Shown in pieces: positions 34,169 to 56,310 of a stretch of 64,000 bases of DNA; within the stretch, counting starts at the first letter, position 1, and each line of letters starts with the position of its first letter. Below the pieces are notes generated by a model. It made no database searches. It was not told the origin of the DNA and worked only from the letters and a program-made list of their open reading frames with translations. The position numbers were made by a program, and so were the translations under genes. The DNA comes from a virus: positions 1-64,000 of the IMG/VR virus record IMGVR_UViG_3300030108_004965. One strand, given 5' to 3'.

Positions 34169-35122
34169 TTACCATTTAAAATTGGCTTTATAATATCTAA
34201 CTATACTGTTTAATTCTTCAGAAAATTTCTTTTTAGGCTTCCAGCCTAGATTTTTTAATTTATCGTCGTTTAGGGCATACCTAACATCTTGACCTTTTCT
34301 TTTGTGACTGAGGTCTAAATATCTACCATATGTTTTTGGTAATTCTCCAAAAAATGCTGCTAGGATTTGTTTGGCAGTCTCAAGATTTGTTTGCTCAAAG
34401 CCCCCAGCGACATTAAAAATTTCGTTTTTTACACCAGACTCAATTATTGTTGTCACAGCAGTCGCTGTATCTGCAGAGTGTAGCCAATTTCTGATCGGCA
34501 ACCCTTGATCATGGAGTCTGATTATCTTTCCTCTTTGGAGATGCTTTACACAGATAGGAATCAATTTTTCTGGGTATTGGCCTACTCCATAGTTGTTCGT
34601 GGGTCTCAAAATCACATACTCTAAATTATATGTCCGGGACCATGCAAGAATTAACATGTCGGCTGCTGCTTTAGAGGCAGAATAAGGATTGGATGGATTA
34701 AGAATGTCAGTCTCGATGTGCTCCCCTTCTGTTATGTCTCCGTAAACTTCGTCAGTACTAAAATGAAAAAAGATTGGTCGTGATTCAATGTTTTCGGGTT
34801 TTTTTCTAATCAAATCTAGTAAGTTCTTTACACCTACTACGTTTGAGTGAATAAAATCTTCAGAATCTATTATACTATTTCCAACATGTGATTCTGCTGC
34901 TACATTGATTACATAATCACAGTGTGGTAAATATTTCAATTTAGCAATGTCCTCTTTTAGAAATTTAAAATTTTTATGTTTATCAAATTCGTCTAGAAAC
35001 TGAGGGTTTGCAGCGTATGTTATCTTGTCTATTCCCAACACCTGCCATCCTTTGTTTAGACACTCTCTCGTCACATGTGAGCCAATTAAGCCTAGGCACC
35101 CTGTTATGATTACTAATTTCAT
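34169..35122 (-). CDS. NDP-hexose 4,6-dehydratase-like SDR (RmlB family)
   Basis: A 317-residue extended short-chain dehydrogenase. The NAD site is GCLGLIGS at 8-15. Active-site residues are T123-D124-E125 (FSTDEVYGD) and Y147-xxx-K151 (PYSASKAAAD). The TDE triad and the later RPTNNYGVGQYPEKLIP segment are diagnostic of nucleotide-sugar 4,6-dehydratases such as dTDP-glucose 4,6-dehydratase. They convert NDP-glucose to the 4-keto-6-deoxy sugar, the entry point to 6-deoxyhexoses. Which nucleotide is used cannot be told; CDP is possible because an RfbH-like enzyme lies in the cluster. It is the last sugar gene before the late genes and abuts the cupin gene. Confidence 0.85.
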   Translation of the reverse strand: MKLVIITGCLGLIGSHVTRECLNKGWQVLGIDKITYAANPQFLDEFDKHKNFKFLKEDIAKLKYLPHCDYVINVAAESHVGNSIIDSEDFIHSNVVGVKNLLDLIRKKPENIESRPIFFHFSTDEVYGDITEGEHIETDILNPSNPYSASKAAADMLILAWSRTYNLEYVILRPTNNYGVGQYPEKLIPICVKHLQRGKIIRLHDQGLPIRNWLHSADTATAVTTIIESGVKNEIFNVAGGFEQTNLETAKQILAAFFGELPKTYGRYLDLSHKRKGQDVRYALNDDKLKNLGWKPKKKFSEELNSIVRYYKANFKW

Positions 35123-35482
35123 TTAATCTCCTTTTTCTATTCTATGACTGTCGCTATCGAAGTGTTGAGTCGAGAACTCAAACAACTCAGTATCCTCCAG
35201 TGCTTCCATTTGATGTCGCAAACCGGTTGGGATGTGAAAATTGTCTCCGGGCTCTAAAATAGTAACATTGGCTTTTTTTAGATCATCCTGATGTGAATAT
35301 CTAACCAAAATTTTTCCTGATTGAATATAAAAAACTTCATCTTTTATTTTGTGGTAATGCCAAGAACACTTTTTTCCTTTTACAAAATATAAAAGCTTGC
35401 CACAGTATTGATCACAGTTGACGATCCACTTTTCAAAACCCCAGCCTTTAGGAACGAACTTTATTGGTAAAAAATTCGACAT
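35123..35482 (-). CDS. Cupin-domain protein, sugar isomerase/epimerase-like
   Basis: A 119-residue single-cupin protein. Motif 1 is WHYHKIKDEVFYIQSGKI, with metal-ligand candidates H42, H44 and E49. Motif 2 is PGDNFHIPTGLRHQM with H90. This pattern resembles the C-terminal cupin of type II mannose-6-phosphate isomerases more than RmlC. It overlaps the HAD phosphatase gene by about 35 bases and is followed immediately by the 4,6-dehydratase. A role as isomerase or epimerase of a phosphosugar or nucleotide sugar is likely, with the substrate unknown. Confidence 0.8.
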   Translation of the reverse strand: MSNFLPIKFVPKGWGFEKWIVNCDQYCGKLLYFVKGKKCSWHYHKIKDEVFYIQSGKILVRYSHQDDLKKANVTILEPGDNFHIPTGLRHQMEALEDTELFEFSTQHFDSDSHRIEKGD

Positions 35483-35780
35483 CTTTCACTCCTTTATCAT
35501 CTATGTAAACATCACCAGAGGGCTTTCCCAAGAACAAATTATGATACTTTACGCCCCAATCCTTCAGTTGTTGCACTGTTAAGTCGTAAAACAAATCATA
35601 CGCCATTGTTTGATTATTATTCGATCTTCCCATGCCCCTTGCTGTTAAGAGTGTTATTTTGTGCCCCTCATCAAACAGTTCATTGATAACCTTAATTCTA
35701 TTGTCAAATGGCTTTGCTTCTTTATATTCCCCACTTGTTAAAGAACAAATCGTTCCATCAATATCAAATACGTATGTCAT
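35448..35780 (-). CDS. HAD-superfamily phosphatase
   Basis: A 110-residue protein with the HAD motif I DIDGTI (nucleophile D6, general acid D8), motif II in LLTARG near residue 45, and a C-terminal VYIDDKG acidic motif. The cap is minimal. Small HAD enzymes of this kind occur in capsule and heptose clusters, where they remove a phosphate from a sugar bisphosphate. Because a heptose-type kinase and nucleotidyltransferase are nearby, a GmhB-like step is an attractive but unproven role. It overlaps the genes on both sides. Confidence 0.8.
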   Translation of the reverse strand: MTYVFDIDGTICSLTSGEYKEAKPFDNRIKVINELFDEGHKITLLTARGMGRSNNNQTMAYDLFYDLTVQQLKDWGVKYHNLFLGKPSGDVYIDDKGVKDVEFFTNKVRS

Positions 35781-36172
35781 TTTTTCTCCAATATCTTGGT
35801 TGTAGAATAATCTCCAATGCGATCAAAGAACACAAGTTGTTTACAATGCTGTTGTCCGACGACTCTTTTTCCTTTCCAATCAGAGCCTATAACCATAACT
35901 TGGATGTTATTTTCAATCAAATGATTTTCTAATTCACCATCTGTTGAATAAGATACTACCTTATCAACGTGACGTATTGATTCCAAGAAATACTTCCTAT
36001 CATTTAAGTCATTAAAGGGCCGAAATGGACCTTTATTTGCCTTCACTCTTTCATCGGTATCAATACCTACCACCAAGCTATCTCCTAGGCTTCTAGCATA
36101 CTCTAATAACTCTATGTGGCCCCTGTGGAGCACATCAAAACAGCCATTTACCCAAACATTAGTAATTTGCAT
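35777..36172 (-). CDS. Sugar-phosphate nucleotidyltransferase, HldE C-domain (RfaE2) type
   Basis: About 131 residues. The opening NGCFDVLHRGHIELLEYA contains the HxGH motif (H16-R-G-H19) and later DTDERVKANKGPFRPFNDLNDR, both typical of the nucleotidyltransferase half of HldE/RfaE and of glycerol-3-phosphate cytidylyltransferases. GSDWKG and the closing DYSTTKIL motif favour the RfaE type. It would join a nucleotide to heptose- or tetritol/glycerol-phosphate. I chose the ATG at 36172; an upstream TTG at 36187 lacks a good site. The kinase half is a separate gene three places upstream, so the usual fusion is split here. Confidence 0.85.
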   Translation of the reverse strand: MQITNVWVNGCFDVLHRGHIELLEYARSLGDSLVVGIDTDERVKANKGPFRPFNDLNDRKYFLESIRHVDKVVSYSTDGELENHLIENNIQVMVIGSDWKGKRVVGQQHCKQLVFFDRIGDYSTTKILEKK

Positions 36173-37088
36173 ACCACGGCCTATCAATTAGTTTGTACAT
36201 CTTTATAAGTTGCTGAATTCCTTGATCCAAGTCATACTTACATTCAAACCCTAAATCATAAATTTTTTGACTACTAACAATATAATCTCTTTTATCTGGG
36301 TCTTGTGTGAATTCTGCTTTTATTATTTCAAGGGGGACATATTCTTTTATCTTCTCTGCTAACTGAAGTTTGTTCATGTTGATACTGTCATTCCCGACAT
36401 TAAAAGTTTGATTCCTGCATTTTTGCCAATTTTCTATAATAAACTCAAATACACGACAAATGTCCCAAATGTGCACATAGTTCCTCATAAATTCACACTC
36501 ATAAAGGACTAGGATCCTGTCTTTTAAAGCCTTAAGAACAAAGTTATTTACCAACAGGTCTGTTCTTGCTCTACTAGAAGGACCGAACACAGTCGCCAAT
36601 CTTAAAGTACAACACCCCTCGGTATTTTTATATATGGTTTCGGCGTCCACCTTGGTTTTGCCATAAAGAGAAACGGGATTTAAAGGAGACTCCTCTGTGC
36701 ACACAGAACCATCCTTGCTTACTCCATAACCAGAATTGGTGCAGGGATAAATTAAAATTTGCTCTGATGTTTTATTTTGTGCTATCCATTTATTTACGTC
36801 AAAATTTATCTCTATAGTATCTCTTTGTCTTTTCTCGCATAAAGGAAAACCAACCAGAGCAGCCAGTGGTATGATTACGTCTGCTTTTTTCATAAAAGAC
36901 CGCATAACGTCAGTTTGTCTCACGTCTATCTTGTCAAAATAAAAATTGTCATGTCCGACATATCGCAACAAAGAATCGGGCTCATACTCTAGATAGTCCA
37001 AAACCTGTACTTTGTGTCCGCTTTTTAATAAAAACCCAACTAATTCACTGCCGATGTATCCGGCACCGCCTGTTACTAGAACATTCAC
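36159..37088 (-). CDS. NAD-dependent epimerase/dehydratase (extended SDR)
   Basis: About 309 residues. The NAD site is GGAGYIGS (7-14) and the active-site pair is Y142-xxx-K146 (SLYGKTKVDAE), with the catalytic Ser/Thr in PCTNSGYG. These are extended SDR features of UDP-glucose 4-epimerase, heptose epimerase and related enzymes. The start is probably the GTG at 37088, which forms a GTGA overlap with the DUF962 gene and has GGGAG nine bases upstream. A TTG at 37112 would overlap more. Substrate unknown. Being flanked by heptose-type genes it might act on that sugar. Confidence 0.8.
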   Translation of the reverse strand: MNVLVTGGAGYIGSELVGFLLKSGHKVQVLDYLEYEPDSLLRYVGHDNFYFDKIDVRQTDVMRSFMKKADVIIPLAALVGFPLCEKRQRDTIEINFDVNKWIAQNKTSEQILIYPCTNSGYGVSKDGSVCTEESPLNPVSLYGKTKVDAETIYKNTEGCCTLRLATVFGPSSRARTDLLVNNFVLKALKDRILVLYECEFMRNYVHIWDICRVFEFIIENWQKCRNQTFNVGNDSINMNKLQLAEKIKEYVPLEIIKAEFTQDPDKRDYIVSSQKIYDLGFECKYDLDQGIQQLIKMYKLIDRPWYANY

Positions 37089-37375
37089 CTTTCGATTCTC
37101 CCAATTAACCAATCTTTTAGCATCACCCAGTCTGCCACTTTGGCCATCAAGGGGCTCGAGAAAGCGGCAGGCTCATTTTTCTCAAAAAAATAATGACCTG
37201 ACCAAGCAAATGGGTAAACAACAAGTGGTGCAACCACCAGCAAGAGCCAGAACTTAACGTAAATAACAGCCGAAACATACAAAATCGTAACGAACTGTCC
37301 GAGGACGTGAAGTCGACGACACCATAGGTTTTGATGAAGCGACAGATAATAAACATAATATTCACTAAAGGTCAT
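37085..37375 (-). CDS. Mpo1-like (DUF962) membrane protein
   Basis: A 96-residue protein with two hydrophobic segments (about 24-40 and 42-58). It carries the DUF962 pattern: YLSLHQNLWCRRLHVLG (H14, H23), then AWSGHYFFEKNEPAAF (H61, E65-K-N), then a D82-W-V-M end. This family includes yeast Mpo1, an iron-dependent dioxygenase of fatty-acid alpha-oxidation, and bacterial homologues are common. In a phage it is unexpected. It is tightly overlapped by the sugar kinase gene on one side and the SDR gene on the other, so it is part of the cluster rather than a stray. It may act on a lipid or lipid-linked intermediate. Confidence 0.8.
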   Translation of the reverse strand: MTFSEYYVYYLSLHQNLWCRRLHVLGQFVTILYVSAVIYVKFWLLLVVAPLVVYPFAWSGHYFFEKNEPAAFSSPLMAKVADWVMLKDWLIGRIER

Positions 37376-38111
37376 TGACTACATTCACTCCTTTCATTTG
37401 AACTACTTTTGTGGCGCATTCATTGGCAAACCTCAAAGATTTACCTATATTTTTGCTTCTAAGAAACTCAACACACATAGATGCTAGAAAAGTATCGCCG
37501 GCGCCACATAGATCTTTTATTTCAACTTTCTCAACGGGGAACAACTCTCCATTTAATTCACACCCTTTTTCCCCAATAGTTTTAATTACCTTCTGTTTTG
37601 TCCAATCATTTTTATTAATGTACTCAAGTGAGTTTTCATATTCATACTTATTAATTTTTATAAATGTACAGTTCTTGCAGTAATCACCAATTACTTTTTT
37701 CGTATCAATAAAGACCAAGTTATGGTTCTCACATATAAACTTTATGTCATCTTCAAGCAAAAAGCCTTTGTTATAATCAGAAATTATTATTAATTCAAAT
37801 TGCGAAATAAATTCTAATGTCAAATCATCCACTCTCTTTATGTCTTCCTCTCCGGAATCAACTCTGAGAAACATGTGATTGGTTTTTTCTTCTACAAATC
37901 TTTTCTTTTCAATGACAACATTGTTAGATTTTAAAATAACAGGGACACCCAAAGAAACAACGTTCTGGTATACATTTCCTGCCATTCCCAAGTTTTGTTT
38001 TTCAAATAGCGGGACAAATACGGGTACAGGAGCGTCTGGGCAAATTCTTTCGCATTTACCATAAACGTGCGTATCTCTGCAGCTATCTCCTATTACCAAA
38101 ATCTTATTCAT
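37365..38111 (-). CDS. PfkB-family sugar kinase, HldE N-domain (RfaE1) type
   Basis: About 248 residues from the ATG at 38111, which overlaps the previous stop (ATGAATAA). Features: LVIGDSCRDTHVYGKCERICPD-like start, NLGMAGNVYQNVVSLG substrate region, SDYNKGFL near 111-118, and the LCGAGDTFLAS anion hole with catalytic D206. All follow the kinase domain of HldE, which phosphorylates heptose-7-phosphate at C1. The protein is shorter than the usual 310-330-residue domain. Together with the separate nucleotidyltransferase and HAD phosphatase it makes up most of an ADP-heptose-like activation path. No isomerase of the GmhA type was seen. Confidence 0.82.
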   Translation of the reverse strand: MNKILVIGDSCRDTHVYGKCERICPDAPVPVFVPLFEKQNLGMAGNVYQNVVSLGVPVILKSNNVVIEKKRFVEEKTNHMFLRVDSGEEDIKRVDDLTLEFISQFELIIISDYNKGFLLEDDIKFICENHNLVFIDTKKVIGDYCKNCTFIKINKYEYENSLEYINKNDWTKQKVIKTIGEKGCELNGELFPVEKVEIKDLCGAGDTFLASMCVEFLRSKNIGKSLRFANECATKVVQMKGVNVVNDL

Positions 38112-38514
38112 CCCAACTGATTGTCCAATCTTTAAATTCAGCCGCAAGGCAATCTATTTTATAATCTTTCCGGCCACCGGCTTTTTCTTGAATTTTATTT
38201 TTAGCAGTATTTCTTATCCCATTCAAGCCATGAGTTAATTCAAGGTTGTTTCCATCCTTAATTCCTTTCCTATAATTCGATTCATTATGCCAAATATGTA
38301 AATTCATTTGTGATAACACTACAATTGCTCTTATTGTTTTGCTATCTAATATAACATTCTTTTCCTTCAATGTCAAGTCAATATCATGTAAAATGTCAGA
38401 AATTTCTTGCCCATACTCTTCTTTATGTTCTGTTATGAACACTTCTTTTAGCTGTGCTATCGATAATCTGTCTATTAACTCCGAAAGTGTTGGTAAATAT
38501 TTTCTTTTACTCAT
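38104..38514 (-). CDS. Conserved-looking helical protein of glycan clusters, function unknown
   Basis: A 136-residue, largely helical protein. The segment LPTLSELIDRLSIAQLKEVFI near the N-terminus is one I have met in unannotated proteins of phage and bacterial sugar clusters, but I know no activity for it. There are no classical catalytic motifs, membrane segments or metal-binding clusters. It overlaps the methyltransferase gene by 4 bases and the kinase gene by 8, so it is firmly embedded in the operon. It may be an accessory subunit. Confidence 0.6.
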   Translation of the reverse strand: MSKRKYLPTLSELIDRLSIAQLKEVFITEHKEEYGQEISDILHDIDLTLKEKNVILDSKTIRAIVVLSQMNLHIWHNESNYRKGIKDGNNLELTHGLNGIRNTAKNKIQEKAGGRKDYKIDCLAAEFKDWTISWDE

Positions 38515-39206
38515 TTGTGTCCCCTTAGTTTAAAATTTAACTGATGAGACACCGCCAATCGTCCGTGTGGGGGTAACCATTCATAAGATAACATTCCCTT
38601 ATTTCTTTCTAGGGGGAAATCATTTATCATTTCAAAACCTTCGCTCTCAATAATTTTAACCCATTCAGCCCTAGGCATTACTAAACAATGTGTGTGCTTT
38701 TCGTGTTCTTCATGAAAAACATAGTCTGCTGCGGTAGTTAGCACAGTGGTTCCCTCATGGCAATGTTTGTGGATATTTTTCAAAAAATCCCTAAAGGTTA
38801 ATGGTTGAATGTGCTCTAGATGCTCAAATGAACAGATTAAATCGAACTTGACTTGTTCATTGTTTTCCTCCACCAAATTATATTCTAAATCAGTGCGAAC
38901 AATAAAATGGTTTTTTTTATCAACAAAAGGGCTGTTTATTGTTTCTGGATTTCCATCTAAAGTTACAACTATATTGTTTTTATCTTCTTTTCTCAAAAAA
39001 TAAGATAAACTACCCGCACCGGAGCCTATGTCTAAAATTTTTTTTGCATTTGGGAATTCCTTAATTAATAATTTTGATAAACCATGGTTCATAATGTGCA
39101 TCATTTTCATCCGATCAAAATAAAGCCCATCACCATGTCTATAGCCGGGCAGGTTTTCTTCCATTTTGACACCTGTATTGTTGCTATTTGTTTGTTTTAT
39201 TTTCAT
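38511..39206 (-). CDS. Class I SAM-dependent methyltransferase
   Basis: A 231-residue protein. The SAM-binding motif ILDIGSGAGSLSYFL (D59 to about 70) is followed by an acidic motif II (VVTLDGNPE) and FDLICSFEHLEHI, which is typical of class I Rossmann methyltransferases of the Methyltransf_11/23 type. Acceptor unknown; within a glycan cluster it is probably a sugar hydroxyl or lipid. It starts 23 bases inside the preceding SDR gene. Confidence 0.82.
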   Translation of the reverse strand: MKIKQTNSNNTGVKMEENLPGYRHGDGLYFDRMKMMHIMNHGLSKLLIKEFPNAKKILDIGSGAGSLSYFLRKEDKNNIVVTLDGNPETINSPFVDKKNHFIVRTDLEYNLVEENNEQVKFDLICSFEHLEHIQPLTFRDFLKNIHKHCHEGTTVLTTAADYVFHEEHEKHTHCLVMPRAEWVKIIESEGFEMINDFPLERNKGMLSYEWLPPHGRLAVSHQLNFKLRGHK

Positions 39207-40110
39207 TTTTATATCCTTTTTTAAAATAATCTATTGTGATTCTTAATCCATTTTTCAAAGACGTATTATTAAGGCTATTTGGAGCCAGTGCCTTATCTGT
39301 TTTGGCTGTGTCTATTCTCTTCTCTTTTACCCCAACGTATTTTGTTAAATCATGTTTTACCTGTGAATAATCATAATCATAAATTTCACAAACAATTCGT
39401 GCAAACTCATTTATTGAATGATCTATACCAGAACCTAGGTTAAACACTTGGTTGTCAAATCCTAATAGATTGATCATTGCAGACACAGCGTCATCAACAT
39501 AGATCAACTCTCTTCTTTGGTGACCATCACCCCAAACAACAAATTCACTATTATTGTATTTAGCGTTATAGCAATTCCTAATAAAATCAAAAATAAAATG
39601 ATTGTCCCCTAATTCAAAGTCTGGTCCGTACAGTGTTGAGGGGACGAAATAAAGCCACTTAAGGCCATACTGTTCTTCCAAGGACTTCAGTCCTACCAAC
39701 AACATTCTCTTCGTCATAGCATAAGTGTATAGTCCTTTGTCGGGCTGTCCTAAAAGGTAATTCTTTTCAGTCATGAACAAGTCTGGTGCGTACGAACAAC
39801 TTGTCCCCATGCAGACCATTTTTGCTTGTGGCTGCTTTTCTTTCCAATACTTAAGGACATTTGTATTAATTATTTGATTAGAGAGCCACTGGTCTCCTTT
39901 AAATTTTAAACAATAATCACCAGCTTTGGTAACTGCTGCTAGATGGAAAATGTAGTCAAATTCTATTTCATCATAAATTCTTAAGTTATCTAAATTGCTT
40001 AAGTTGGCTGTTTTTGTATTTGATATAAAAACAGCGTACCCAAGTTTTTTTAATTTTTTAACCAAATGGGTTCCCAAAAATCCGGTTGCACCAGTAACTA
40101 AAATTCTCAT
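39184..40110 (-). CDS. GDP-L-fucose synthase-like epimerase/reductase (extended SDR)
   Basis: A 308-residue extended SDR. Nucleotide site GATGFLGTH (7-15), GTSCSYAP near 102-109, Y130-xxx-K134 (YTYAMTKRM), and VPSTLYGPDF followed by FVVWGDGHQRRELIYVDDA, a run characteristic of GDP-fucose synthase (WcaG/GMER) proteins. That enzyme carries out epimerisation at C3/C5 and reduction at C4 of a 4-keto-6-deoxy sugar. Related reductases act on GDP-heptoses in Campylobacter capsule. The actual substrate here is unknown. A 4-base overlap couples it to the C-methyltransferase gene. Confidence 0.82.
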   Translation of the reverse strand: MRILVTGATGFLGTHLVKKLKKLGYAVFISNTKTANLSNLDNLRIYDEIEFDYIFHLAAVTKAGDYCLKFKGDQWLSNQIINTNVLKYWKEKQPQAKMVCMGTSCSYAPDLFMTEKNYLLGQPDKGLYTYAMTKRMLLVGLKSLEEQYGLKWLYFVPSTLYGPDFELGDNHFIFDFIRNCYNAKYNNSEFVVWGDGHQRRELIYVDDAVSAMINLLGFDNQVFNLGSGIDHSINEFARIVCEIYDYDYSQVKHDLTKYVGVKEKRIDTAKTDKALAPNSLNNTSLKNGLRITIDYFKKGYKNENKTNK

Positions 40111-41324
40111 TTATTTCTCCCTATAACTTTGTATGAAGGAAACGGTATTATAAATTCAGTACCTTGCAACATAATATCTTCGTTTTTTCGTATTATTTCT
40201 TCTTCAAAGTTGTGAGACAATAATAGATAATAATCAGGCCTGTCTTGCTTTGATTCTCTGACAATTGGTATGTGGGAGCCCGGTAAGTAGTTTCCTATTT
40301 TTAATTCATTGATCTCAACAGATTTATCAACTAAACTATTGTCTATCCCAAAGTAATTCAACAAAGTGTTTCCTTTGGCTGGTGCGCCATATGCATAAAT
40401 TTTTTTACCAGAGGATTTTATTTGCTGTAATTTGTTTTTTAAATCATACCTTTGTGATTCAATTTTTTTAGCAAAAGCCAAAAATCGCTCAACAGTATAC
40501 TGCTCGTCTTTGTTTAACAAATCCAAATACCTTTCAGTTTTCTGATTAAGTTCACCATTTGTATGAGTGATTTTTGCTATAATAGATCCACTATGAATCT
40601 CTGAGTAATAAGCATCGAAAATTTCTAAGCCATAAGGAGATAATAAGTTACTTAGACTCCTTAAAGTGTAATAACACAAGTGTTCATGATAGATTGTATC
40701 AAAATTCAACTTCTCTATCATTGTACCAGCATACATAAACTGTACGATCAAAACTCCATCATCGCGAAGAGAAAACTTAATGCCATCAATAACACTGTGC
40801 AACTCCTCTAAGTGGAAAAACACCCCAGAGGCATTATATAGTTTTACTTTCTTTTCTCCAATGTGCTCGTCCACACACTCTTTATTAAAATACTTTGTTA
40901 TAGTATCTATACCATTGTTTCTAGAGATCTCTGATACTCTTTTTGCGCACTCTACGTTTAAGAGAGATCCCGCTCCCAACTTTTTGTATTGAAGCAACTG
41001 GCTACCGTCATTTCCCCCGATGTCAACCACAAGATCTGTGCTTACGATTGAAAACTGTTTAACGTTTTCTTTCGCTACATCGTAGAAATGCCCAGTAAGC
41101 GTTTTCGTCATTCCCGATAAATAAGAGTGGTCTGCAAACATTGTTTCTTTCGGTACTGTGTGGTTTAATTGTAATAAGTCACAGTCTAAGCAACAAACCA
41201 AATGCAGAGGATATTTTTTTTCTTTTCCTAATTGCTCCTCGGATAAAAAATCATTACACCACGGCTGTTCTCCAAGGTCTAAAATCGACTTCATTTCGGG
41301 AGACCCACAAGATCTACAATTCAT
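40107..41324 (-). CDS. Sugar C-methyltransferase, TylC3/NovU-like
   Basis: A 405-residue protein with the three-part layout of NDP-sugar C-methyltransferases. The N-terminal zinc region has CRSC (C3, C6) and CCLDC (C44-C48). The SAM domain has VVDIGGNDGSQL (99-110). Then comes a YHEHLCYYTLRSL segment and a C-terminal domain beginning IYAYGAPAKGNTLLNYFG. The family adds a methyl branch at C3 (or C5) of a 4-keto deoxysugar. It fits a pathway with a 4,6-dehydratase and a 3-dehydrase in the same cluster, and suggests that the final sugar is branched. Confidence 0.88.
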   Translation of the reverse strand: MNCRSCGSPEMKSILDLGEQPWCNDFLSEEQLGKEKKYPLHLVCCLDCDLLQLNHTVPKETMFADHSYLSGMTKTLTGHFYDVAKENVKQFSIVSTDLVVDIGGNDGSQLLQYKKLGAGSLLNVECAKRVSEISRNNGIDTITKYFNKECVDEHIGEKKVKLYNASGVFFHLEELHSVIDGIKFSLRDDGVLIVQFMYAGTMIEKLNFDTIYHEHLCYYTLRSLSNLLSPYGLEIFDAYYSEIHSGSIIAKITHTNGELNQKTERYLDLLNKDEQYTVERFLAFAKKIESQRYDLKNKLQQIKSSGKKIYAYGAPAKGNTLLNYFGIDNSLVDKSVEINELKIGNYLPGSHIPIVRESKQDRPDYYLLLSHNFEEEIIRKNEDIMLQGTEFIIPFPSYKVIGRNK

Positions 41325-42274
41325 TGGGTATTATCCTTTTTTATTTTTTCTATAAATTTTTCTGTTGTATAATTCATAGATTTTATATATGCATTTTCTA
41401 CAATCTGTTGATAATCACCCCAATTATTTAAAACTTCTTTTATTTTTTTTTCAAGATCAATTTCATTATCAAAATATACAAAGTCTTCTTCTGGGGTGTA
41501 AAAATCCTCAATAACATTCCAGTCATCTTTTCTTACCAAATTAAGAGTTCTAGAGATTGCTGCTTCATGAAACCTTGTTTTGAACTGGGGCATCGCTGCT
41601 AGCGTATCTATAGAGGAAAAGGCTAAATTTTTCTTATATTCAGGTCTTGATTTGATCCTAGGTATGTGCTCTTTGTGCACTTGGGCCATGTTATAACAAA
41701 CTGAAACTTTCGATTCTGCTACTAAATTAATTTTATCTTTGAATTTTAAATTAGTGTTTGTAGCGTAAGGCAAAAAATGCCTAGTTAAACTGTTAATGTG
41801 CGTGGTCATCGTGCAGTACCTGTAATTAAACTTACTCATGACCTTTAGACAATCAACATGTTCTTTTGCATGGATGCCACCATGGTAAATTACGTCATAC
41901 TTTTTTTCCTGCTTTTCTGGTGTCAAAGTCTTGCAGAATGGGTAAAAAATGTATCTATATTCACGACCTAAATGTAAATTGTTCATCCACTCAACTGTAT
42001 ATGGACAGATTGAATAAACTACATCAAATTTTTCTTCGTAATCCATGGGAGACTTACCATTATGATCTTTTACCTGTGCGAATTCACAAGGAGCCCAGTT
42101 GTTAAATAAAATCTTTTTGTAATCACACAAATCTGTTTCTAACAATTTATTGTTGGAGGAGTTATAACCATATAAAAGCACTGTTTTTTTATCATCATCA
42201 GAGAATTTTTTAAAATTAAAATGATAAGCATTTGTGTCAGGCACTTCTGCTGTTAGGTTCTCTAAAATTAACAT
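41321..42274 (-). CDS. Putative CgeB/GT-B-like glycosyltransferase
   Basis: About 317 residues. The C-terminal half contains KTRFHEAAISRTLNLVRKD and then a LEKKIKEVLNNW helix, the nucleotide-sugar side of CgeB-type group 1 glycosyltransferases (glyco_trans_1_2), in which the E/A/A segment contacts the donor. The N-terminal half is less conserved. I use the ATG at 42274, which overlaps the previous stop as TAATG; an upstream GTG at 42283 is the alternative. Donor and acceptor unknown. Confidence 0.65.
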   Translation of the reverse strand: MLILENLTAEVPDTNAYHFNFKKFSDDDKKTVLLYGYNSSNNKLLETDLCDYKKILFNNWAPCEFAQVKDHNGKSPMDYEEKFDVVYSICPYTVEWMNNLHLGREYRYIFYPFCKTLTPEKQEKKYDVIYHGGIHAKEHVDCLKVMSKFNYRYCTMTTHINSLTRHFLPYATNTNLKFKDKINLVAESKVSVCYNMAQVHKEHIPRIKSRPEYKKNLAFSSIDTLAAMPQFKTRFHEAAISRTLNLVRKDDWNVIEDFYTPEEDFVYFDNEIDLEKKIKEVLNNWGDYQQIVENAYIKSMNYTTEKFIEKIKKDNTQ

Positions 42275-43023
42275 TAAACCCACCCTCTTTTTCGAATATC
42301 GATCTTATATTTTTTTATCATTGATCCCATTATTTTAGGATACTCGGTCAGATTCCACCTACCTTTCACTAAAGCAGTTGAAACATGGGGAAAAACTTTA
42401 GAGTCATAATGGTAAACCCCTCTTTTGGGCTCTCCATAATAACAAAATAAACCAGACAAGCCCAGTTTTCTACAAGTCTCAGTTGCTTGATATTCAAAGG
42501 AGTTTTGCCAATCAACGTTTGCTATGTGAAGGTTCGGGCCTCTTTGGTGGATTAACTCCAAGTCTCTTGTCTTCCATAGCGCAGCCTGTCCGGTGTAAAA
42601 ATAATCATTATTTATTGGCACAAAAAATAAATTATCACAAAATTTTTCATGTGGCCCATGATAAGTACCACCTTTCATAAACCTAATGAAAGATAAAGAT
42701 GGGTTTTTCATTAAAGTTGATTTAAAAAAATCTATACTCTCTTCATTAATAAAATCGTAGAGTATGTAATCCTCGGATATATAAATACAAAATTCCTCTT
42801 CTACTTTTTCTATGCAGCTTACGAACTGATTTTTAAAACTTTCGTTTTTCTCATACTTTATAATCTCATATCCTGTTGGTATCTTTGATAAATCGTCGTC
42901 CACGAAGACATATTTTTTATCAAAAAAACTTTTAGTTATAAATTGATCTATTTGATTGAAAAACATCTCCCAAACATCATTGTTCTTGGACACCGTATTA
43001 ATTACCAAACTAAGCTTACTCAT
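42274..43023 (-). CDS. Putative GT-A-like glycosyltransferase of phage glycan clusters
   Basis: A 249-residue protein beginning KLSLVINTVSKN with a strand-turn like GT-A enzymes. An acidic motif ISEDYILYD near residue 95 could bind metal and nucleotide. The middle has a YTGQAALWKTRDLELI segment resembling the acceptor-side loop of GT-A proteins. No firm family assignment is possible. It overlaps the dehydrase gene by 4 bases and is coupled to the next transferase gene by TAATG. Confidence 0.55.
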   Translation of the reverse strand: MSKLSLVINTVSKNNDVWEMFFNQIDQFITKSFFDKKYVFVDDDLSKIPTGYEIIKYEKNESFKNQFVSCIEKVEEEFCIYISEDYILYDFINEESIDFFKSTLMKNPSLSFIRFMKGGTYHGPHEKFCDNLFFVPINNDYFYTGQAALWKTRDLELIHQRGPNLHIANVDWQNSFEYQATETCRKLGLSGLFCYYGEPKRGVYHYDSKVFPHVSTALVKGRWNLTEYPKIMGSMIKKYKIDIRKRGWV

Positions 43024-44357
43024 AAAACTCTCTCAAAAAACGACTCCAAAGTATTATCAATCTTTTTTATTTTTTCATCAGTTATACCAATAAAAGTACC
43101 TATTAGGATTGAATTTCTGGTTGCCAAATTAGCATTATGAAATTTTTTATAATCGTGTTTTAATCTTAGCTTTTTATAAGCTGGGTGATATAGTAGATTT
43201 CCAGTAAAATAAGGCCTTGTTTGGATTTTGTTAGATTCTAAATAATCAATAAACTGATGTCTATTAAAAAATTCATTATCCTTTAAAATGGGCATAAACC
43301 CAAACCAACATGGATCTGATCTTTTTGTTTTCTTTGGTAGTATAAAAAACTCTTCATATTTCTTAAAAACATTTATTAGTTTTTTAAAATTGTCTCTCCT
43401 CGCTTGTTCCAAGGTTGGTAGTTTTTTTATCTGCTCTAGACCAATTGCGCCTTGTAATTCTAAAGGTTTTAAATTATAACCTATTTCATCAAAAACATAT
43501 CGGTGATCGTAGATCAAACTTCTATCGCTTTTAAACCAACTTTTGAATCGATTTCCGCATGCTGTCGACTGCATCACGCAGCCGGGCTTTTTCTCATTAC
43601 AATAACAGGCTCTTCCCCAGTCTCTGATGCTGTTAATGGTACGATTCAATAGATAATCGTCAGTTGCTACAAACCCACCTTCTCCTAGGGTCATATGGTG
43701 AGCGGGATAAAATGAACAAGTTGACATAAGACCAAAAGATCCCAGTTTTTTATCATCGTAGTATGAACCCAGAGCGTCACACGCATCTTCGAGAAAAACT
43801 AATTTATATTTATCAACTATGCTCATCAATCTTTCCATGTCTGGTGGGTTACCGAGAACATGGGCAAAAATAATCCCTTTTATTTCTCTTTTGGTATCCT
43901 TGGCTAACAACTCCTCTACTTGATCTAGATCTAAATTTAGACTTGGAATTTCAACATCAACAAAAACAGGCTCTAAACCTAATTGAATTAAGGGATTGAT
44001 AGTTGTAGGAAAACAAACTACCGGAGTTATAAACTTATCACCTCTTTTAATCCTATATTTCTTAGGGCACTTATTTTCACTTAGCAACGAGGATACCATT
44101 AATAAATTAGCAGAACTGCCTGAGTTTGTTAGTGTTCCCATTTTTTTACCTAAATTAATTGGAAAATTTAGTTCAAATTCTCTGCATTTTTTTCCAAATA
44201 CCAACCAGCCATCCAGTAGTGAATCAAATGCTGCTCTATATTCTTCAAAACCAATGTGTGGTCCCGAGTAGCTTACCCACTCAGATTGTTCGTTATTTTC
44301 ATCTAAATAACATTTTAAGAGTTCATAGATTTTGTTTCTTTTTTCTTCTTGTGTCAT
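43020..44357 (-). CDS. RfbH/E1-type PMP- and iron-sulphur-dependent 3-dehydrase
   Basis: A 445-residue member of the DegT/StrS fold. At SFYPAHHMTLGEGG the position of the usual PLP-binding lysine is His (H220), the diagnostic change of CDP-4-keto-6-deoxyglucose-3-dehydrase (E1, RfbH/DdhC/AscC) and of ColD. E1 also holds a [2Fe-2S] cluster on a C-x57-C-x-C-x7-C motif. Here C193, C251 and C253 keep that spacing exactly, with C260 or C267 as fourth ligand. D191 is the pyridine-nitrogen aspartate. The enzyme removes the 3-hydroxyl on the way to 3,6-dideoxyhexoses. Its reductase partner (E3) is not in this window. It would therefore depend on a host or distant phage reductase. Confidence 0.9.
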   Translation of the reverse strand: MTQEEKRNKIYELLKCYLDENNEQSEWVSYSGPHIGFEEYRAAFDSLLDGWLVFGKKCREFELNFPINLGKKMGTLTNSGSSANLLMVSSLLSENKCPKKYRIKRGDKFITPVVCFPTTINPLIQLGLEPVFVDVEIPSLNLDLDQVEELLAKDTKREIKGIIFAHVLGNPPDMERLMSIVDKYKLVFLEDACDALGSYYDDKKLGSFGLMSTCSFYPAHHMTLGEGGFVATDDYLLNRTINSIRDWGRACYCNEKKPGCVMQSTACGNRFKSWFKSDRSLIYDHRYVFDEIGYNLKPLELQGAIGLEQIKKLPTLEQARRDNFKKLINVFKKYEEFFILPKKTKRSDPCWFGFMPILKDNEFFNRHQFIDYLESNKIQTRPYFTGNLLYHPAYKKLRLKHDYKKFHNANLATRNSILIGTFIGITDEKIKKIDNTLESFFERVL

Positions 44358-45193
44358 TTTTGTCCTAATAGTATTTTATCAATAGCAGACCATATTGTGT
44401 ATTGTTGTTTAAACCCAGTCTTGTGCAATTTATTTACATCCAAGTACATGTTCTTAACTTGTACTATTTTATGAAACTCGGGAGGCTCTATCGATTCTAT
44501 TTTGCTTTTTGAGCCTAGAGAGTTTTTACAATACATTATCACATCTTTTATCTTAGTAGGCTTACCAGATCCAATGTTAATTATATCATTTGTACTAGAG
44601 TTGCTTATACAGCACTTAATCGCATTACAAACATCGTCCACGTACATATAGTCCCTAACATGTTCTCCGTCATCGTATAGCTGTATGTCCTCGTTGTTTT
44701 TTAGATTACCAATCATAAACTGTAGCGCATTTTTTTTCTTTGAAACACCGGCATCAGATTCTCCAATAACATTACAAAGTCTCAAAATCCTATATTTCAT
44801 GTTGTGCGTTTCACAGTATGAGATTAGCATCTGTTCTGCTGTTCTCTTGGTTATGGAATAAAAACCTTTTGGATCACAAACGGACAGTTCAGTAGCTGGG
44901 AGATCTAGCGTTTTTCCATAAACAAACCAAGAACTTACAAAATTAAAAATCAGTTCGGTCTGATTTTTATTGGCCTCTAGTACTTCCAATAATTTAATTA
45001 AATTTGTCTCAACGTCCAAGAAGGGCTTATCGAAAATGTTGTAATTCGTTGTCGTACTTATAAAGTATAGCAATTCATTACTTTCAGAAGTGTTTTGTTC
45101 TCTCGGAATTTTAATCACTTCATCAGAAAATAAATTACAATATCTAGATCCTATAAACCCAGACGAGCCATAAATGGAAATTTTATTATTCAT
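44354..45193 (-). CDS. Nucleotide-sugar reductase/epimerase (extended SDR), possibly abequose/paratose-synthase-like
   Basis: A 279-residue SDR with GSSGFIGSRY (9-18), the catalytic Ser in FVSSWFVYG, and Y112-xxx-K116 (GFYSITKRTAEQ). RDYMYVDDV near 195 is typical of extended SDRs. It is coupled by ATGA to the RfbH-like gene. In O-antigen clusters RfbH is followed by an SDR (RfbJ abequose or paratose synthase) that reduces the 4-keto group of the 3,6-dideoxy sugar. The same job here is a reasonable inference from position and size, not from diagnostic residues. Confidence 0.75.
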   Translation of the reverse strand: MNNKISIYGSSGFIGSRYCNLFSDEVIKIPREQNTSESNELLYFISTTTNYNIFDKPFLDVETNLIKLLEVLEANKNQTELIFNFVSSWFVYGKTLDLPATELSVCDPKGFYSITKRTAEQMLISYCETHNMKYRILRLCNVIGESDAGVSKKKNALQFMIGNLKNNEDIQLYDDGEHVRDYMYVDDVCNAIKCCISNSSTNDIINIGSGKPTKIKDVIMYCKNSLGSKSKIESIEPPEFHKIVQVKNMYLDVNKLHKTGFKQQYTIWSAIDKILLGQK

Positions 45194-45947: not shown

Positions 45948-46756
45948 GCCACCCCTCTCAGATAGTAATTTATAAATTGATCATCTTTCTCTAAAAAACT
46001 GAATACTAGGTTAGACAACTCATTATTAAACTCAATTATTCCGGGATAGAATAGGTCCATGGATACCCCATGCTTAGATGAAAGCTCTTTTCTTTTCCAG
46101 ATGTCTATAGAGTCATAAGCAGGTCTATTTCCAGATCCATTGTGAAAAATCAAATCATCATAAACAGCAAACATAAGAGGGTGTAAGTCACAACAGTTAG
46201 TTCTTAACATTTTGCCCCAGACGACCCCTAGGTTGTCCAAGGTCTCTTTCAATAATACACCGGCACAACTTGCTCCTCTAGAGGGATTTAATTCCCAAGA
46301 TAAATTATTGTTTTTCCAAAAACCGTATGTAGTCGCAAGGAAACAAGGGTGAGGATAAGGCTTAAATTTTTCATCAAGCAAAGGCTCTATGTTCTCTTCC
46401 CTAGAGATTGCAACTAGGGGGTAAACTTGTAGTTTATTAATTATTTTTTCATACCAAGAGTCATTAATTGGAAAAGCATCAGGGTCTATAAACACAATCA
46501 CATCATTATCACTGGGGTTGAATGAATTCAAAATATTGTACATTTTATTCATTTTCACATAATGCTTGTTTTCAACACTTGAAATGTCATAAACATTAGT
46601 AGAATGTAATTTCAATTCATTTTTTACAGAACCTACATCAATCTCTGTTATTCCACAAATAACTTTATATTCAACAGTGGTATTTTTTTTTATGAACCTA
46701 GACTGCAGATTCATCCACTTATGTGATTTATGGTGGTTTGTCATTAAATAGAGCAT
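45944..46756 (-). CDS. Putative GT-A glycosyltransferase
   Basis: A 270-residue protein. VIVFIDPDAFPIND around residue 87-99 holds a DxD metal-binding motif (D91-P-D93) after a hydrophobic strand, as in GT-A transferases. The N-terminus LYLMTNHHKSHKW is the first strand. The family is not certain. ATG at 46756 keeps the first strand; an ATG at 46744 that overlaps the previous stop (TAATG) would remove four residues and is also possible. Confidence 0.6.
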   Translation of the reverse strand: MLYLMTNHHKSHKWMNLQSRFIKKNTTVEYKVICGITEIDVGSVKNELKLHSTNVYDISSVENKHYVKMNKMYNILNSFNPSDNDVIVFIDPDAFPINDSWYEKIINKLQVYPLVAISREENIEPLLDEKFKPYPHPCFLATTYGFWKNNNLSWELNPSRGASCAGVLLKETLDNLGVVWGKMLRTNCCDLHPLMFAVYDDLIFHNGSGNRPAYDSIDIWKRKELSSKHGVSMDLFYPGIIEFNNELSNLVFSFLEKDDQFINYYLRGVA

Positions 46757-47367
46757 TTTACCACCCCTACATCTTTGAATAAATCAAACTCTTTTAGATT
46801 TCTATAAAAAGGTTTTTCTGGTAGATCCTCTACATGATCCGGATAATTTTGCATTAACATCAAGCCTCTCGCAGCCTGCTCGGGAGACATGTAGGCATTC
46901 CATCCATTGATTTGAATGTTGTCTTCATGATACATAACTTCTCCACGACCTTCATAACGACCCTTTCTGAACCACCTCGCGGCATCTTCATCATCTGTTA
47001 GTATCATTCCCCCTTTACCAATCTTTAAGTGCTTTTTGATATGAAAGGAAAGGCACATATAAGATCCCGGGATGTACATTCCGCTTGTAAGTCTTTTCGC
47101 TGCATCCCAAATTGGGTATGGCTCTAATTGATAAATGCCTTTCCACCTATAGTCTTTAAACTTTAGTGATCCTCCAGCATGTAAAATAGATTGAGGAACC
47201 GATAAATAAGTTCTAGAAGGTATTGTTACTTCTTCTACTTGCAAGTATTCACAGCACAACAAAAGAGCGTCTGTACAATTATCTGTTGAGACAGCATATT
47301 TCGATCCGCAATAATCTGCTACTGTTTCTTCAAACATCTTAACTATCTTATAAGGGTTGTGTCTCAC
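46744..47367 (-). CDS. Short DegT/DnrJ/StrS-family aminotransferase-like protein
   Basis: A 207-residue protein with the core of sugar aminotransferases: KYAVSTDNCTDALLL (PLP phosphate cup), IWDAAKR with D88, and SFHIKKHLKIGKGGM with K112 as likely PLP lysine. Usual members are 360-400 residues, so the C-terminal domain is missing, although the frame ends in an ordinary stop with a coupled neighbour. The start is a GTG at 47367 with GGAG five bases upstream, giving a GTGA overlap with the acetyltransferase. Whether it is active, acts as a dimer, or is degenerate cannot be judged. Confidence 0.72.
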   Translation of the reverse strand: MRHNPYKIVKMFEETVADYCGSKYAVSTDNCTDALLLCCEYLQVEEVTIPSRTYLSVPQSILHAGGSLKFKDYRWKGIYQLEPYPIWDAAKRLTSGMYIPGSYMCLSFHIKKHLKIGKGGMILTDDEDAARWFRKGRYEGRGEVMYHEDNIQINGWNAYMSPEQAARGLMLMQNYPDHVEDLPEKPFYRNLKEFDLFKDVGVVKCSI

Positions 47368-49706: not shown

Positions 49707-51316
49707 AGAGACACCTCCTTAACAGTTTTCCATCCCTTCCGAAGTCCAGTTTGAACACAAACATCTCTCTCAGAGAAAAACTTCTGATGAGATACGGCGG
49801 AGTTTGTTGATGTCGCCTTATTATCAATACCCAGTTCGTTCCCCAATATCGATCCGTGCAACTCTGGGTCTTCAGGAGGGTGAGGCGGACAATATGTTGG
49901 GATTCCACCATGTATCTTCGCCATAAATCCGAATTGAATATCCTCTCCGTTATCCCAAGTCACAGGTTTTTCTTGCCAGAGGTACCTAAGCCACTCTCTC
50001 TTAAAGAACCAAGAGTGCCCAACGAGATCAACTTCTGTTACCTCAGGATTTTGTGTTGGCCAACCACATCTGTCGTGATTGACGTAGCGATTTCCCTTCA
50101 GGATGATTCCCGCTGATCCCATGATACCCTCGTGAGTCTTCATTGTTTCTAAGCAGTTCTCGTGCCATCTACGGCCCGGTATTGTATCGTCGTCATAAAG
50201 TGCCACGTATTCTGTATCTGCCAAGAGTGCTGCGGCGAATCTGCCATAGAACTTCCAATTAAAATCGTTCTTAAAAACTCTATCAACCCCAAGAGTTTCA
50301 GGATCAAAATCCTTATTATCTTCGTGGTAGTTTATCCATAGCCAGATTTGCGCTGGTTTAATAGATTGTGCTCTGATTGCATCGACTTGCATCTTCAGAT
50401 TATATGGTCTTCTGTAGCAATTCAGAATGACAGTGATGTCTCCCTCTTTGGATTCGTGCTTTGTGACCTCGAACAACTTGTCTTGGATTTTTGATACCAC
50501 AACGTCTCGTTGAGAATCAACATAATCGATCAAATCTTGCCCTTTAAGGCCTTTGAACCAAGGTTCATAGGTACACCCATTAAGGTGGTTTGTCATTAGC
50601 TTACAGCCTAACATACGGGCTTCTAAAATGACCCTACAAAAACTCTCCAATGTCTTAGGGAAGAAAACAAATTTGTCATACTTTGCAAGAGTAGAAAGAT
50701 ACTGCTCGTAAGGCAGTTTTGGTATCAAGTCGTACTCTACATTCTTTTTTAAGCATGTATCAACTGCTTCCTTTGTTCCTTTGATGATATTTGGGTCATT
50801 AATGATCATCGCTTTGTTATTCTTCTCAGAGATTTTACTTCTAATTAAATCAAGTTGCTCCCTCGACCAAAGAGAGCAACCCAGATTCGTAACATTATTG
50901 ATACCCAAATTCTCTGATAATACTTGGGTGTGTTTAATTGATTGACAAAAGACGTGTTTTGCTGATGCGTAGAAATCACGATTGATAATGAAATTTGCTG
51001 GTGCTTTAAAGTTTTTAAAATCAGCAGGATTTCTATTAGACAAGTATTTGTGATCATGTTCTAAAATACAGTATTCCGCTGAGGCTTGTAAGAACTTTAA
51101 AATCTTTGGTTTTAGTCTAAAGAAGTTAGAAACCAAAAAAGTAAAACCCATTTCATTATATAATTTAAGGTGATTAAGAGAAAACTCTTCAGAATTAAAT
51201 TTACAAACCTTAATTCCTTTATTTTCTAACTCTTGGATTAACAATTTATCATAAGTCTCTGCTCCGCCTTGGACTTGACTATAGAAGAAGTCGGCTATGA
51301 AAACTACCTTTTTCAA
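49703..51316 (-). CDS. Two-domain glycosyltransferase (GT4-like plus GT2-like)
   Basis: A 537-residue protein. The first half has FFYSQVQGGAETYDKLL, the donor-side loop of GT4 (group 1) enzymes, and an EYDLIPKLPYEQYLSTLAKYDKF-like middle. From about residue 288 a GT2 domain starts (DITVILNCYRRPYNL), with DDD near 374 (YVALYDDDTIPG) as the metal site and WDNGEDIQFGF as the probable catalytic base region. Such fusions add two sugars in order. The start is a TTG at 51316, which overlaps the previous stop (TTGA) and has GGAG about 6 bases upstream. The next ATG would delete about 50 residues. Confidence 0.83.
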   Translation of the reverse strand: MKKVVFIADFFYSQVQGGAETYDKLLIQELENKGIKVCKFNSEEFSLNHLKLYNEMGFTFLVSNFFRLKPKILKFLQASAEYCILEHDHKYLSNRNPADFKNFKAPANFIINRDFYASAKHVFCQSIKHTQVLSENLGINNVTNLGCSLWSREQLDLIRSKISEKNNKAMIINDPNIIKGTKEAVDTCLKKNVEYDLIPKLPYEQYLSTLAKYDKFVFFPKTLESFCRVILEARMLGCKLMTNHLNGCTYEPWFKGLKGQDLIDYVDSQRDVVVSKIQDKLFEVTKHESKEGDITVILNCYRRPYNLKMQVDAIRAQSIKPAQIWLWINYHEDNKDFDPETLGVDRVFKNDFNWKFYGRFAAALLADTEYVALYDDDTIPGRRWHENCLETMKTHEGIMGSAGIILKGNRYVNHDRCGWPTQNPEVTEVDLVGHSWFFKREWLRYLWQEKPVTWDNGEDIQFGFMAKIHGGIPTYCPPHPPEDPELHGSILGNELGIDNKATSTNSAVSHQKFFSERDVCVQTGLRKGWKTVKEVSL

Positions 51317-52557
51317 TCGAACTCCAGCACAACTTCTTCATCATCGCTTGGCTCTATCAAAGAACTATCAAAGCCCAAGACTGAGTCTACAAATAATTTA
51401 TACAATTTTTCGTCTGAAAATTTAACTTTATTTATCTCTTGTAATTCTGTTGCAAGGTTTTTTGCTTCATCCCAGTTTTCATAAACTTTTCTAATTGATT
51501 CTTTATACGAGGATTCTTTTGCATTCGCCCATTGAGAATCAGCCTCTATTACACCTTGCCAAACAGCAGAAGGTTGGACTTGTTCAATTGTGAAACCAAC
51601 ATTAGTAAAATAATCTTTTCCTTCATGGGTTAAAAAATCTGTTTGACCAGACCAGCCAACGGTCACAACCGGAAGTGCCTCTCTCGACGCTTCAAACAAA
51701 GGTAATCCAAAGCCCTCACCGTGTGCAATGTTGACAAGTGCCTTTACTTTTTGGTTTGTATAGAGGCTGGCCATTTGTCCACTAGACAAATCCCCATGTA
51801 ATAAATGTACTTTACATTTTCGATCTTTATAATTGCTCAAAAGGTTTTTCAGAGAGTTCTCAGTTACTTCAAGATCCATGACTGAATTTCCTCTCATATT
51901 TGTCTTGATTATCAATCCAACATCATCATTCAGAAATTCTTCAACCCACCAACATATTGTGTTTTCAAAGTTTTTTCTTGGACTTATTTGAGAACACACA
52001 ACAAAATTGAAATCCTGTGGTGGATCAAAGCCCGGGATAGCCTCCGGAGTTGCTCTAGGGGTGGTTTCCCATACAACTTCGACAGGGGTTTCCAATTTAT
52101 AATCAGTCTCTTCTTTTGTTTGATTGTTGATTGCTTTAGCAACTGTTAACTCATAGGTTTCTTTTGCGTGGTTAGATACCACTAAAATTTTATCAACCTG
52201 TTCATTTCCTTTTTGGAGCCACTGTGGTGCAACACGATCAGTTTCTATGCCGGCTGTATATCCAATGTTAATAGGGCACAGTCTTTCAAATTCATTTGGG
52301 ATAGTAATCTGAAGGGAGATGTCTGGTTGTAACTCTTGTTGTTGTAACTTTATCTGTGTTTCTATTATTCTGGAGTCTAGCCAGACCCTAAATTCATCAT
52401 CTTCCCAAATCCAACCTGTTTGTCCCCAAGGGATTGGCTGAACGTAAATGTCAAACAAGTCTTCGCGAGATCTTAATGCTCGAATAGCAAACCTAGATTG
52501 TTCTCCGTAACCTGATTGACTTAAGCACGGTGCTCTTACAAATATCTTTTTTTTCAC
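51313..52557 (-). CDS. Glycosyltransferase, group 1 (GT4)
   Basis: A 414-residue GT-B protein. The N-terminal SQSGYGEQSRFAIRAL is the acceptor-domain loop, and ISPRKNFENTI with HGEGFGLPLFEA (about 277-295) forms the C-terminal donor site with the EGFGLPLFE motif (the E-x7-E equivalent). Start is GTG at 52557 (GTGA overlap; AGGAG six bases upstream). It is the second gene of the promoter-led operon. Sugar donor and acceptor unknown. Confidence 0.87.
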   Translation of the reverse strand: MKKKIFVRAPCLSQSGYGEQSRFAIRALRSREDLFDIYVQPIPWGQTGWIWEDDEFRVWLDSRIIETQIKLQQQELQPDISLQITIPNEFERLCPINIGYTAGIETDRVAPQWLQKGNEQVDKILVVSNHAKETYELTVAKAINNQTKEETDYKLETPVEVVWETTPRATPEAIPGFDPPQDFNFVVCSQISPRKNFENTICWWVEEFLNDDVGLIIKTNMRGNSVMDLEVTENSLKNLLSNYKDRKCKVHLLHGDLSSGQMASLYTNQKVKALVNIAHGEGFGLPLFEASREALPVVTVGWSGQTDFLTHEGKDYFTNVGFTIEQVQPSAVWQGVIEADSQWANAKESSYKESIRKVYENWDEAKNLATELQEINKVKFSDEKLYKLFVDSVLGFDSSLIEPSDDEEVVLEFD

Positions 52558-55890: not shown

Positions 55891-56310
55891 TTATTTATTA
55901 GTCTTCATAATCCAATCAGCAATTGGCAATACCACATTCCAGTTTTGATTTGGGTTTTTCATGTGATGCTTCCAATGCCAGTTTTGGTATTTTTTTGCCC
56001 ACGACGGATTCCTATGTCCTAAATTGTGCAAGATAATAAAAGCTATTGCATAGACAACTGTAGCACAATAGAACATAGGACTAATAAGGATAATAGGCAA
56101 ATGGACAGCGCTAAGGAATAATAAGCCAATTGTTTCCCGCCTAGAAAATTGATTATCGTAGAAATTATTTTTGATACAGTCTGCATGGTGTTCCCTCAAA
56201 TGAAATGCCCAAAAACTACCTCTTTTTTTTCCGAGTTCATGAAATAATTTCTTGTGAACCCACCACTCTAAAAAACTTGCATAAACTGTTCCAAAAATAA
56301 ATCCTATCAT
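55891..56310 (-). CDS. Fatty-acid hydroxylase/sterol-desaturase-like membrane protein
   Basis: A 139-residue protein with hydrophobic stretches at about 2-17, 62-80 and 81-96. It carries the histidine clusters of the di-iron membrane hydroxylase family: H19-x4-H24, H37-x3-H41-H42 (HLREHHAD), H95-x3-H99 (HNLGH) and H112-x2-H115-H116 (HWKHH). Members hydroxylate lipids, sterols or carotenoids. At 139 residues it is compact. Its ATG overlaps the phoH stop by ATGA, so it is part of that operon. The substrate could be a host membrane lipid. Confidence 0.82.
   Translation of the reverse strand: MIGFIFGTVYASFLEWWVHKKLFHELGKKRGSFWAFHLREHHADCIKNNFYDNQFSRRETIGLLFLSAVHLPIILISPMFYCATVVYAIAFIILHNLGHRNPSWAKKYQNWHWKHHMKNPNQNWNVVLPIADWIMKTNK

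Follow-up and report, generated by a model that had tools for sequence, protein, structure and literature searches.

The window analysed in this work (64 kb) is the first part of a 191,696-base virus record from a T4-like myovirus, whose terminase is nearest to that of Flavobacterium phage immuto (46%). The window also encodes a baseplate wedge protein and PhoH, and a megablast search of positions 40001-64000 against phages returned no match. The gene of main interest (43020-44357, minus strand) starts with ATG, encodes 445 residues and lies within a run of about 20 co-directional genes that are mostly sugar-related. Its start is overlapped by 4 bases by an SDR gene (44354-45193, minus strand; PF01370), which is a candidate 4-ketoreductase, or epimerase, of the E1 product because of this overlap and because its homologues recur near E1 and a dehydratase in eight loci of relatives (L010-L012, L030, L152, L158, L166 and L167). 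Further genes of the minus strand encode an RmlB-type NDP-glucose 4,6-dehydratase (34169-35122; STDEVYG and YxxxK motifs), the putative supplier of a 4-keto-6-deoxy substrate; a sugar-isomerase-like cupin (35123-35482) with an orthologue 68% identical in a cluster of relatives (L005); a GDP-fucose-synthase-like SDR epimerase/reductase (39184-40110); a sugar C-methyltransferase (40107-41324; PF08421 and PF08484) that may act in a later tailoring step; a glycosyltransferase-like protein (41321-42283; PF13524); and two GT4-like glycosyltransferases (51313-53819). Since nearly all of the roughly 20 genes of the run lack predicted membrane segments, no flippase or polymerase is apparent among them, and export of the sugar would need host machinery, unless it is used within the cell.

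Several other genes of this phage deserve mention. E1's cluster also holds separate RfaE-like kinase and nucleotidyltransferase domains of the heptose type (35777-36187 and 37365-38147). A mini DegT protein of about 200 residues (46744-47367) is half the usual size and apparently keeps the lysine (SFHIKKHL); similar short DegT versions recur in the sugar clusters of relatives (L118:13859-14515 and L224:7528-8124). An Mpo1-like protein (37085-37375) and a fatty-acid-hydroxylase-like membrane protein (55891-56310) are lipid-related and unusual for a phage. Beyond the 64-kb window, at least seven ORFs (record positions 68559, 73315, 118532, 169546, 176748, 179169 and 186314) have similar N-terminal segments of the form MK-x-T/S...L..I/M-x-EE, which may be prohead-targeting peptides like those of T4 internal proteins.

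The sequence of the 43020-44357 product gives good support to its assignment as an E1-type (His, [2Fe-2S]) 3-dehydrase, as opposed to a ColD or an aminotransferase. The protein scores 431.7 bits (E=2.7e-129) against the NCBIfam RfbH equivalog, whose curated cut-off is 423, and phmmer places the Yersinia pseudotuberculosis enzyme E1 (3bcx) and its H220K mutant (3bb8) first among PDB sequences. In the phmmer alignment, SFYPAHHIT of E1 faces SFYPAHHMT of the phage protein. The column of phage H220 (codon 43698-43700, minus strand), which is aligned with His220 of E1, holds a lysine in 3bb8, so the preliminary description was right that this histidine replaces the catalytic, PLP-binding lysine. 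It had also noted a C-x57-C-x-C spacing for the first three predicted cluster ligands, C193 (43779-43781), C251 (43605-43607) and C253 (43599-43601, all minus strand), which is exact by direct reading of the positions, and the numbering of these residues and of H220 coincides with that of E1. Its wording that all diagnostic residues were present holds for H220 and these three cysteines, but it overlooked the fourth ligand, C267 (43557-43559, minus strand). H220, C193, C251, C253 and C267 are invariant in an alignment of 44 phage and bacterial sequences, H220 and the four cluster cysteines are also invariant across the 91 sequences of the phage set, and C260 is variable among relatives. The invariance of H220 and C214 results partly from selection, since both are inside CSFYPAH, a pattern used in the scan; the four cluster cysteines belong to none of its patterns.

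Pfam and PHROGs label this product an aminotransferase, and a DegT-family enzyme making a 4-amino sugar could have been misread as a dehydrase. The DegT fold is compatible with such a function, and SpnQ transaminates without a reductase (PMC8987622), no recognisable one being encoded in the phage record. However, this possibility is hardly credible in view of the histidine found in place of the catalytic lysine, the four invariant cluster cysteines, and scores of 165 bits for aminotransferase models versus 432 bits for RfbH. A lysine-type DegT aminotransferase was rejected because H220 stands where the PLP-binding lysine would be. ColD (GDP-4-keto-6-deoxymannose 3-dehydratase; 2gms and 3b8x) shares the fold and the active-site histidine but, unlike the phage E1, works without an iron-sulphur cluster and is driven by glutamate; this identity was rejected since the four cluster cysteines are kept and the linked dehydratase is RmlB-type and not GDP-mannose type. 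A gene of cyanophage S-CAM7 (KU686212) named CDP-4-keto-6-deoxy-D-glucose-3-dehydrase illustrates the other case: with GMD and GDP-fucose synthetase as neighbours and none of the cluster cysteines, it is ColD-like and misnamed.

Compared with Yersinia E1 (DdhC/AscC, the CDP-6-deoxy-L-threo-D-glycero-4-hexulose 3-dehydrase), the phage enzyme has in common the fold, the length, His220, the four cysteines and the C-x57-C-x1-C spacing. It differs by an identity of only about 37%, by the Thr-Asp-Glu triad of its partner dehydratase, by the lack of E3 in the phage record, and by a C-x13-C instead of a C-x7-C arrangement of the last two ligands. The E1 cluster motif, as Agnihotri 2004 reportedly described it, is C-x57-C-x1-C-x7-C with C261 as the last ligand. 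The phage motif reads C-x57-C-x1-C-x13-C, with an insertion in the cluster loop before C267, the residue aligned with C261; the spacing thus departs from that of the Yersinia enzyme, which the RfbH model does not require. Four cysteines bind the [2Fe-2S] cluster of E1-type enzymes (PMC8987622). The structural comparison with E1 and ColD proposed in the preliminary description placed E1 at the top of the Foldseek search, ahead of ColD (TM 0.90 to 3bcx and 0.88 to ColD, with an AlphaFold model). Although the overall pLDDT of this model is 91.5, the loop at about 250-270 that carries C251 to C267 is weakly predicted (block means of 54-55, and below 50 for residues 260-263).

The longer loop is a property of a whole phage branch. 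When viral contigs were scanned with an alignment of the family, at least 587 relatives came up, and GTDB contigs gave a further 239. In a quick tree of 140 sequences, a branch with an SH-aLRT of 99 has on one side 66 phage rows, among them that of the window, together with three MAG contigs and a distant ColD-like row, and on the other side three phage rows from INPHARED and 67 rows from bacteria. The last two ligands are separated by 11-13 residues in 69/69 phage-branch rows versus seven in 64 of the 67 bacterial relatives. From their sequences, the phage E1s form a branch of their own with a longer cluster loop and a different partner dehydratase. Every ORF of the GTDB contigs L027-L029, filed as Maricaulis and Thaumarchaeota, is phage-like, so we treated them as probable misbinned phage; in L030 (Pirellula), only the trio of E1, SDR and dehydratase is phage-like, and this contig is not seen as misbinned.

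An E1-type gene in a phage is no novelty, and in this sense the gene was correctly described as phage-borne without being the first of its kind, as the cultured cyanophages RN05-S and S-H68 carry such genes. Those of RN05-S and of the marine virus AG-345-D19 keep the histidine and the four cysteines and have a Thr-Asp-Glu dehydratase in the same cluster, but they are only 34-38% identical to the window E1 and fall on a different tree branch. Near-identical matches to the RN05-S gene are present in S-H68, S-B05, S-B43 and RB11-B. In addition, rfbH has been reported among viral auxiliary genes (PMC10653327, PMC11295528), and in the open-access literature searched it is merely a listed viral gene. 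What is new here is the context, i.e. the phage branch, its cluster loop and its partner dehydratase.

The partner dehydratase bears directly on the nucleotide carried by the substrate. The 34169-35122 product scores 300 bits with the dTDP-glucose dehydratase model TIGR01181 versus 70 bits with the CDP-glucose dehydratase model, its top PDB matches are dTDP-glucose dehydratases, and dTDP-glucose dehydratase is the best family for 21/21 scanned members of its type. Its triad is Thr-Asp-Glu; Asp-Glu marks dTDP/UDP-glucose dehydratases and Asp-Lys marks CDP-glucose dehydratases (PMC8987622). Two observations count against reading a shared dTDP/UDP pathway from this gene: the score of 300 bits is below the TIGR01181 curated cut-off of 365, and the dehydratase is not adjacent to E1 in the window phage but 8 kb away. 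In similarity-selected, clustered and dereplicated loci, an orthologue of this dehydratase was found within 8 kb of E1 in 61 of 68 phage-type loci versus 1 of 67 bacterial ones (Fisher p 4e-29), and RfbF-like nucleotidyltransferase genes in 0/68 versus 29/67 (Fisher p 3e-11); since the loci are selected by similarity and related, these p-values overstate independence. On the E1 tree, a single change of partner type is enough. A regular expression for the Thr-Asp-Glu dehydratase gave 77/91, and a stricter one 65/90, the gap being explained by a Rossmann-motif filter; we prefer the dereplicated count. Among phage-type loci, a 4-base overlap between the dehydratase gene and the stop of E1 is frequent.

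In a reciprocal scan, of loci picked by the dehydratase, an E1 was present in 38/80 and directly adjacent in 23; the 42 loci with no E1-type gene nearby count against the route proposed below. In six other dehydratase-picked loci, an RfbH-like protein with the histidine but without the cysteines (SFYASHV/I) takes E1's overlapping position; two such proteins score 268-270 bits with RfbH, about twice any aminotransferase model. If both proteins 3-deoxygenate the dehydratase product, such an exchange would be expected. Genes of this kind overlapping an RmlB-type dehydratase (L221:8844-10004, L233:7096-8238 and L250:8835-9998) possibly represent a second type of phage 3-dehydrase. As a within-phage control, only 1/20 viral loci picked by a cluster glycosyltransferase contained the 34169-type dehydratase, which is therefore not simply common in such clusters. 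At the sequence level, the dehydratase-E1 linkage is an association and not a proof of one pathway.

These data suggest that the substrate of the phage E1 is not the CDP sugar of Yersinia E1 but comes from the partner dehydratase 8 kb away, and a 3,6-dideoxyhexose would be reached from a dTDP or UDP sugar. The rival view, in which a conventional E1 uses host-made CDP-4-keto-6-deoxyglucose and the phage adds only the 3-dehydrase and later steps, would agree with best matches to the CDP-specific E1 and the RfbH equivalog, and a host could provide this sugar. We nonetheless consider it unlikely, since RfbF-like genes are absent from all 68 phage-type loci and the Thr-Asp-Glu dehydratase is linked in most of them, while bacterial relatives tend the opposite way. 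A CDP-type partner was disfavoured on the same grounds. As regards RfbF and the Asp-Lys CDP-glucose dehydratase of the ddh/asc pathway, no NTP_transferase domain above cut-off was found in the whole record.

The absence of the reductase E3 noted for the window was confirmed and extends to the whole 191,696-base record. A profile search of this record detected no Fer2, NAD_binding_1, FAD_binding_6 or flavodoxin domain, and the ferredoxin-NAD reductase that the preliminary description had suggested seeking elsewhere in the genome is not recognisable by its domains. A regular-expression search found no E3 beside E1 in 171 flanks, 91 of them viral and 80 from cellular genomes; because this situation is usual even in bacterial relatives, a missing neighbouring E3 says little on its own. 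The nearest relative, one phage represented by two records and with an E1 64% identical, encodes near PhoH an Fpr-type ferredoxin-NADP reductase (L268:3459-4244; 283 bits to 2bgi). The Fpr of this 93.7-kb relative is probably not a general solution for phages, since FAD_binding_6 occurs in 1/16 large records. It could be argued that the E1-type 3-dehydrase is fed by an unrecognised phage-encoded electron carrier and not by the host, in line with the reductase of the nearest relative and the many phage ORFs lacking an assignment. In light of the domain search of the record and of the single FAD_binding_6 in 16 large records, some of which are possibly incomplete, we judge such a carrier very unlikely. 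E1 receives its electrons from E3, and SpnQ from ferredoxin/flavodoxin reductases (PMC8987622). Since Fer2 was found in 0/16 large records, our best guess is that host ferredoxin/flavodoxin reductases may supply the phage E1 in an SpnQ-like arrangement, with which the Fpr-type reductase of the nearest relative agrees. SpnQ, the dTDP-4-keto-2,6-dideoxyglucose 3-dehydrase of spinosyn biosynthesis, also has the histidine, a [2Fe-2S] cluster and a dTDP sugar (PMC8987622), although its substrate is a 2,6-dideoxy sugar and its likeness to the phage E1, as taken from its description, is one of working.

In E1 chemistry, the sugar forms a Schiff base with PMP, the 3-OH is lost with the help of the histidine, and two single electrons are then transferred via [2Fe-2S] (PMC8987622). 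Building on what the sequence shows, namely the family, residues, linkage and absence of E3, we propose the following scheme for the chemistry, the nucleotide, the source of electrons, the succession of steps and the acceptor. Host NDP-glucose would be converted by the 34169-35122 dehydratase into dTDP- (or UDP-) 4-keto-6-deoxyglucose, the most likely substrate, rather than a CDP sugar. In the phage E1, the 4-ketone would form a Schiff base with PMP, H220 would deprotonate the cofactor, and the 3-OH would leave. Two electrons from host ferredoxin/flavodoxin reductases, as with SpnQ, would then pass one by one via the C193/C251/C253/C267 cluster and reduce the glucoseen intermediate to an NDP-4-keto-3,6-dideoxyhexose. 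Finally, the 44354-45193 SDR would reduce the 4-ketone of this product, and the cluster glycosyltransferases would transfer the resulting sugar to an acceptor on the virion, on nucleic acid or on the cell surface. We regard this explanation as a whole, from a PMP/[2Fe-2S] E1-like 3-dehydrase on a dTDP/UDP sugar to the host electrons, SDR and glycosyltransferases, as fairly probable. That 3-deoxy sugar chemistry takes place during infection may reasonably be inferred from the linked 4,6-dehydratase, the further SDR and the glycosyltransferases.

Relatives of this phage seem to go further. Of the 68 phage-type loci, 45 have a ThDP enzyme alongside E1, which is acetolactate-synthase-like in 29 and split-transketolase-like in 16. 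The ThDP enzyme of L008 matches 8rph with 592 bits, a structure of JanthE, a YerE-like carboligase (PMC12188165). L008 and L135 also contain acetaldehyde dehydrogenase and 4-hydroxy-2-oxovalerate aldolase types, in agreement with ErwE using 4-hydroxy-2-oxo acids for erwiniose (PMC12247030). A cassette shared by L008 (12268-16901), L224 and L247, which combines a 4,6-dehydratase, a YerE/ErwE-like carboligase, an acetaldehyde dehydrogenase and a 4-hydroxy-2-oxovalerate aldolase, resembles a pathway to a branched sugar of the erwiniose type. Split transketolase pairs adjoin E1 in 16/68 phage-type loci (e.g. L118:8027-9143 and L109:7574-8651) and are perhaps alternative branching enzymes. The YerE-like carboligases of many relatives suggest C-branched sugars; the window phage lacks all these accompanying enzymes, with no TPP_enzyme_N domain in the whole record, but has a C-methyltransferase.

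Among O-antigen sugars, 3,6-dideoxyhexoses and those with C-branches are rare and, to our knowledge, are known only via CDP-glucose or GDP-mannose routes. We consider it quite possible, if not quite probable, that the phage E1 branch, with its remodelled loop and RmlB-type dehydratase, makes 3,6-dideoxyhexoses, often C-branched (yersiniose/erwiniose-like) in relatives, from dTDP-/UDP-glucose instead of CDP-glucose and with host ferredoxin as the source of power, in order to decorate virions or infected cells. If true, this dTDP/UDP route has not been described for bacterial 3,6-dideoxyhexoses, and the small gene set of the cassette would lend itself to in vitro reconstitution. Besides, Pfam, PHROGs and many records mislabel E1-type phage genes as aminotransferases, and KEGG-style rfbH calls made on viromes may point to an incorrect nucleotide. 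The occurrence of the dehydratase and 3-dehydrase cassette on hundreds of virus contigs implies that phages make such sugars themselves, by a route that probably draws on a nucleotide pool present in most hosts.
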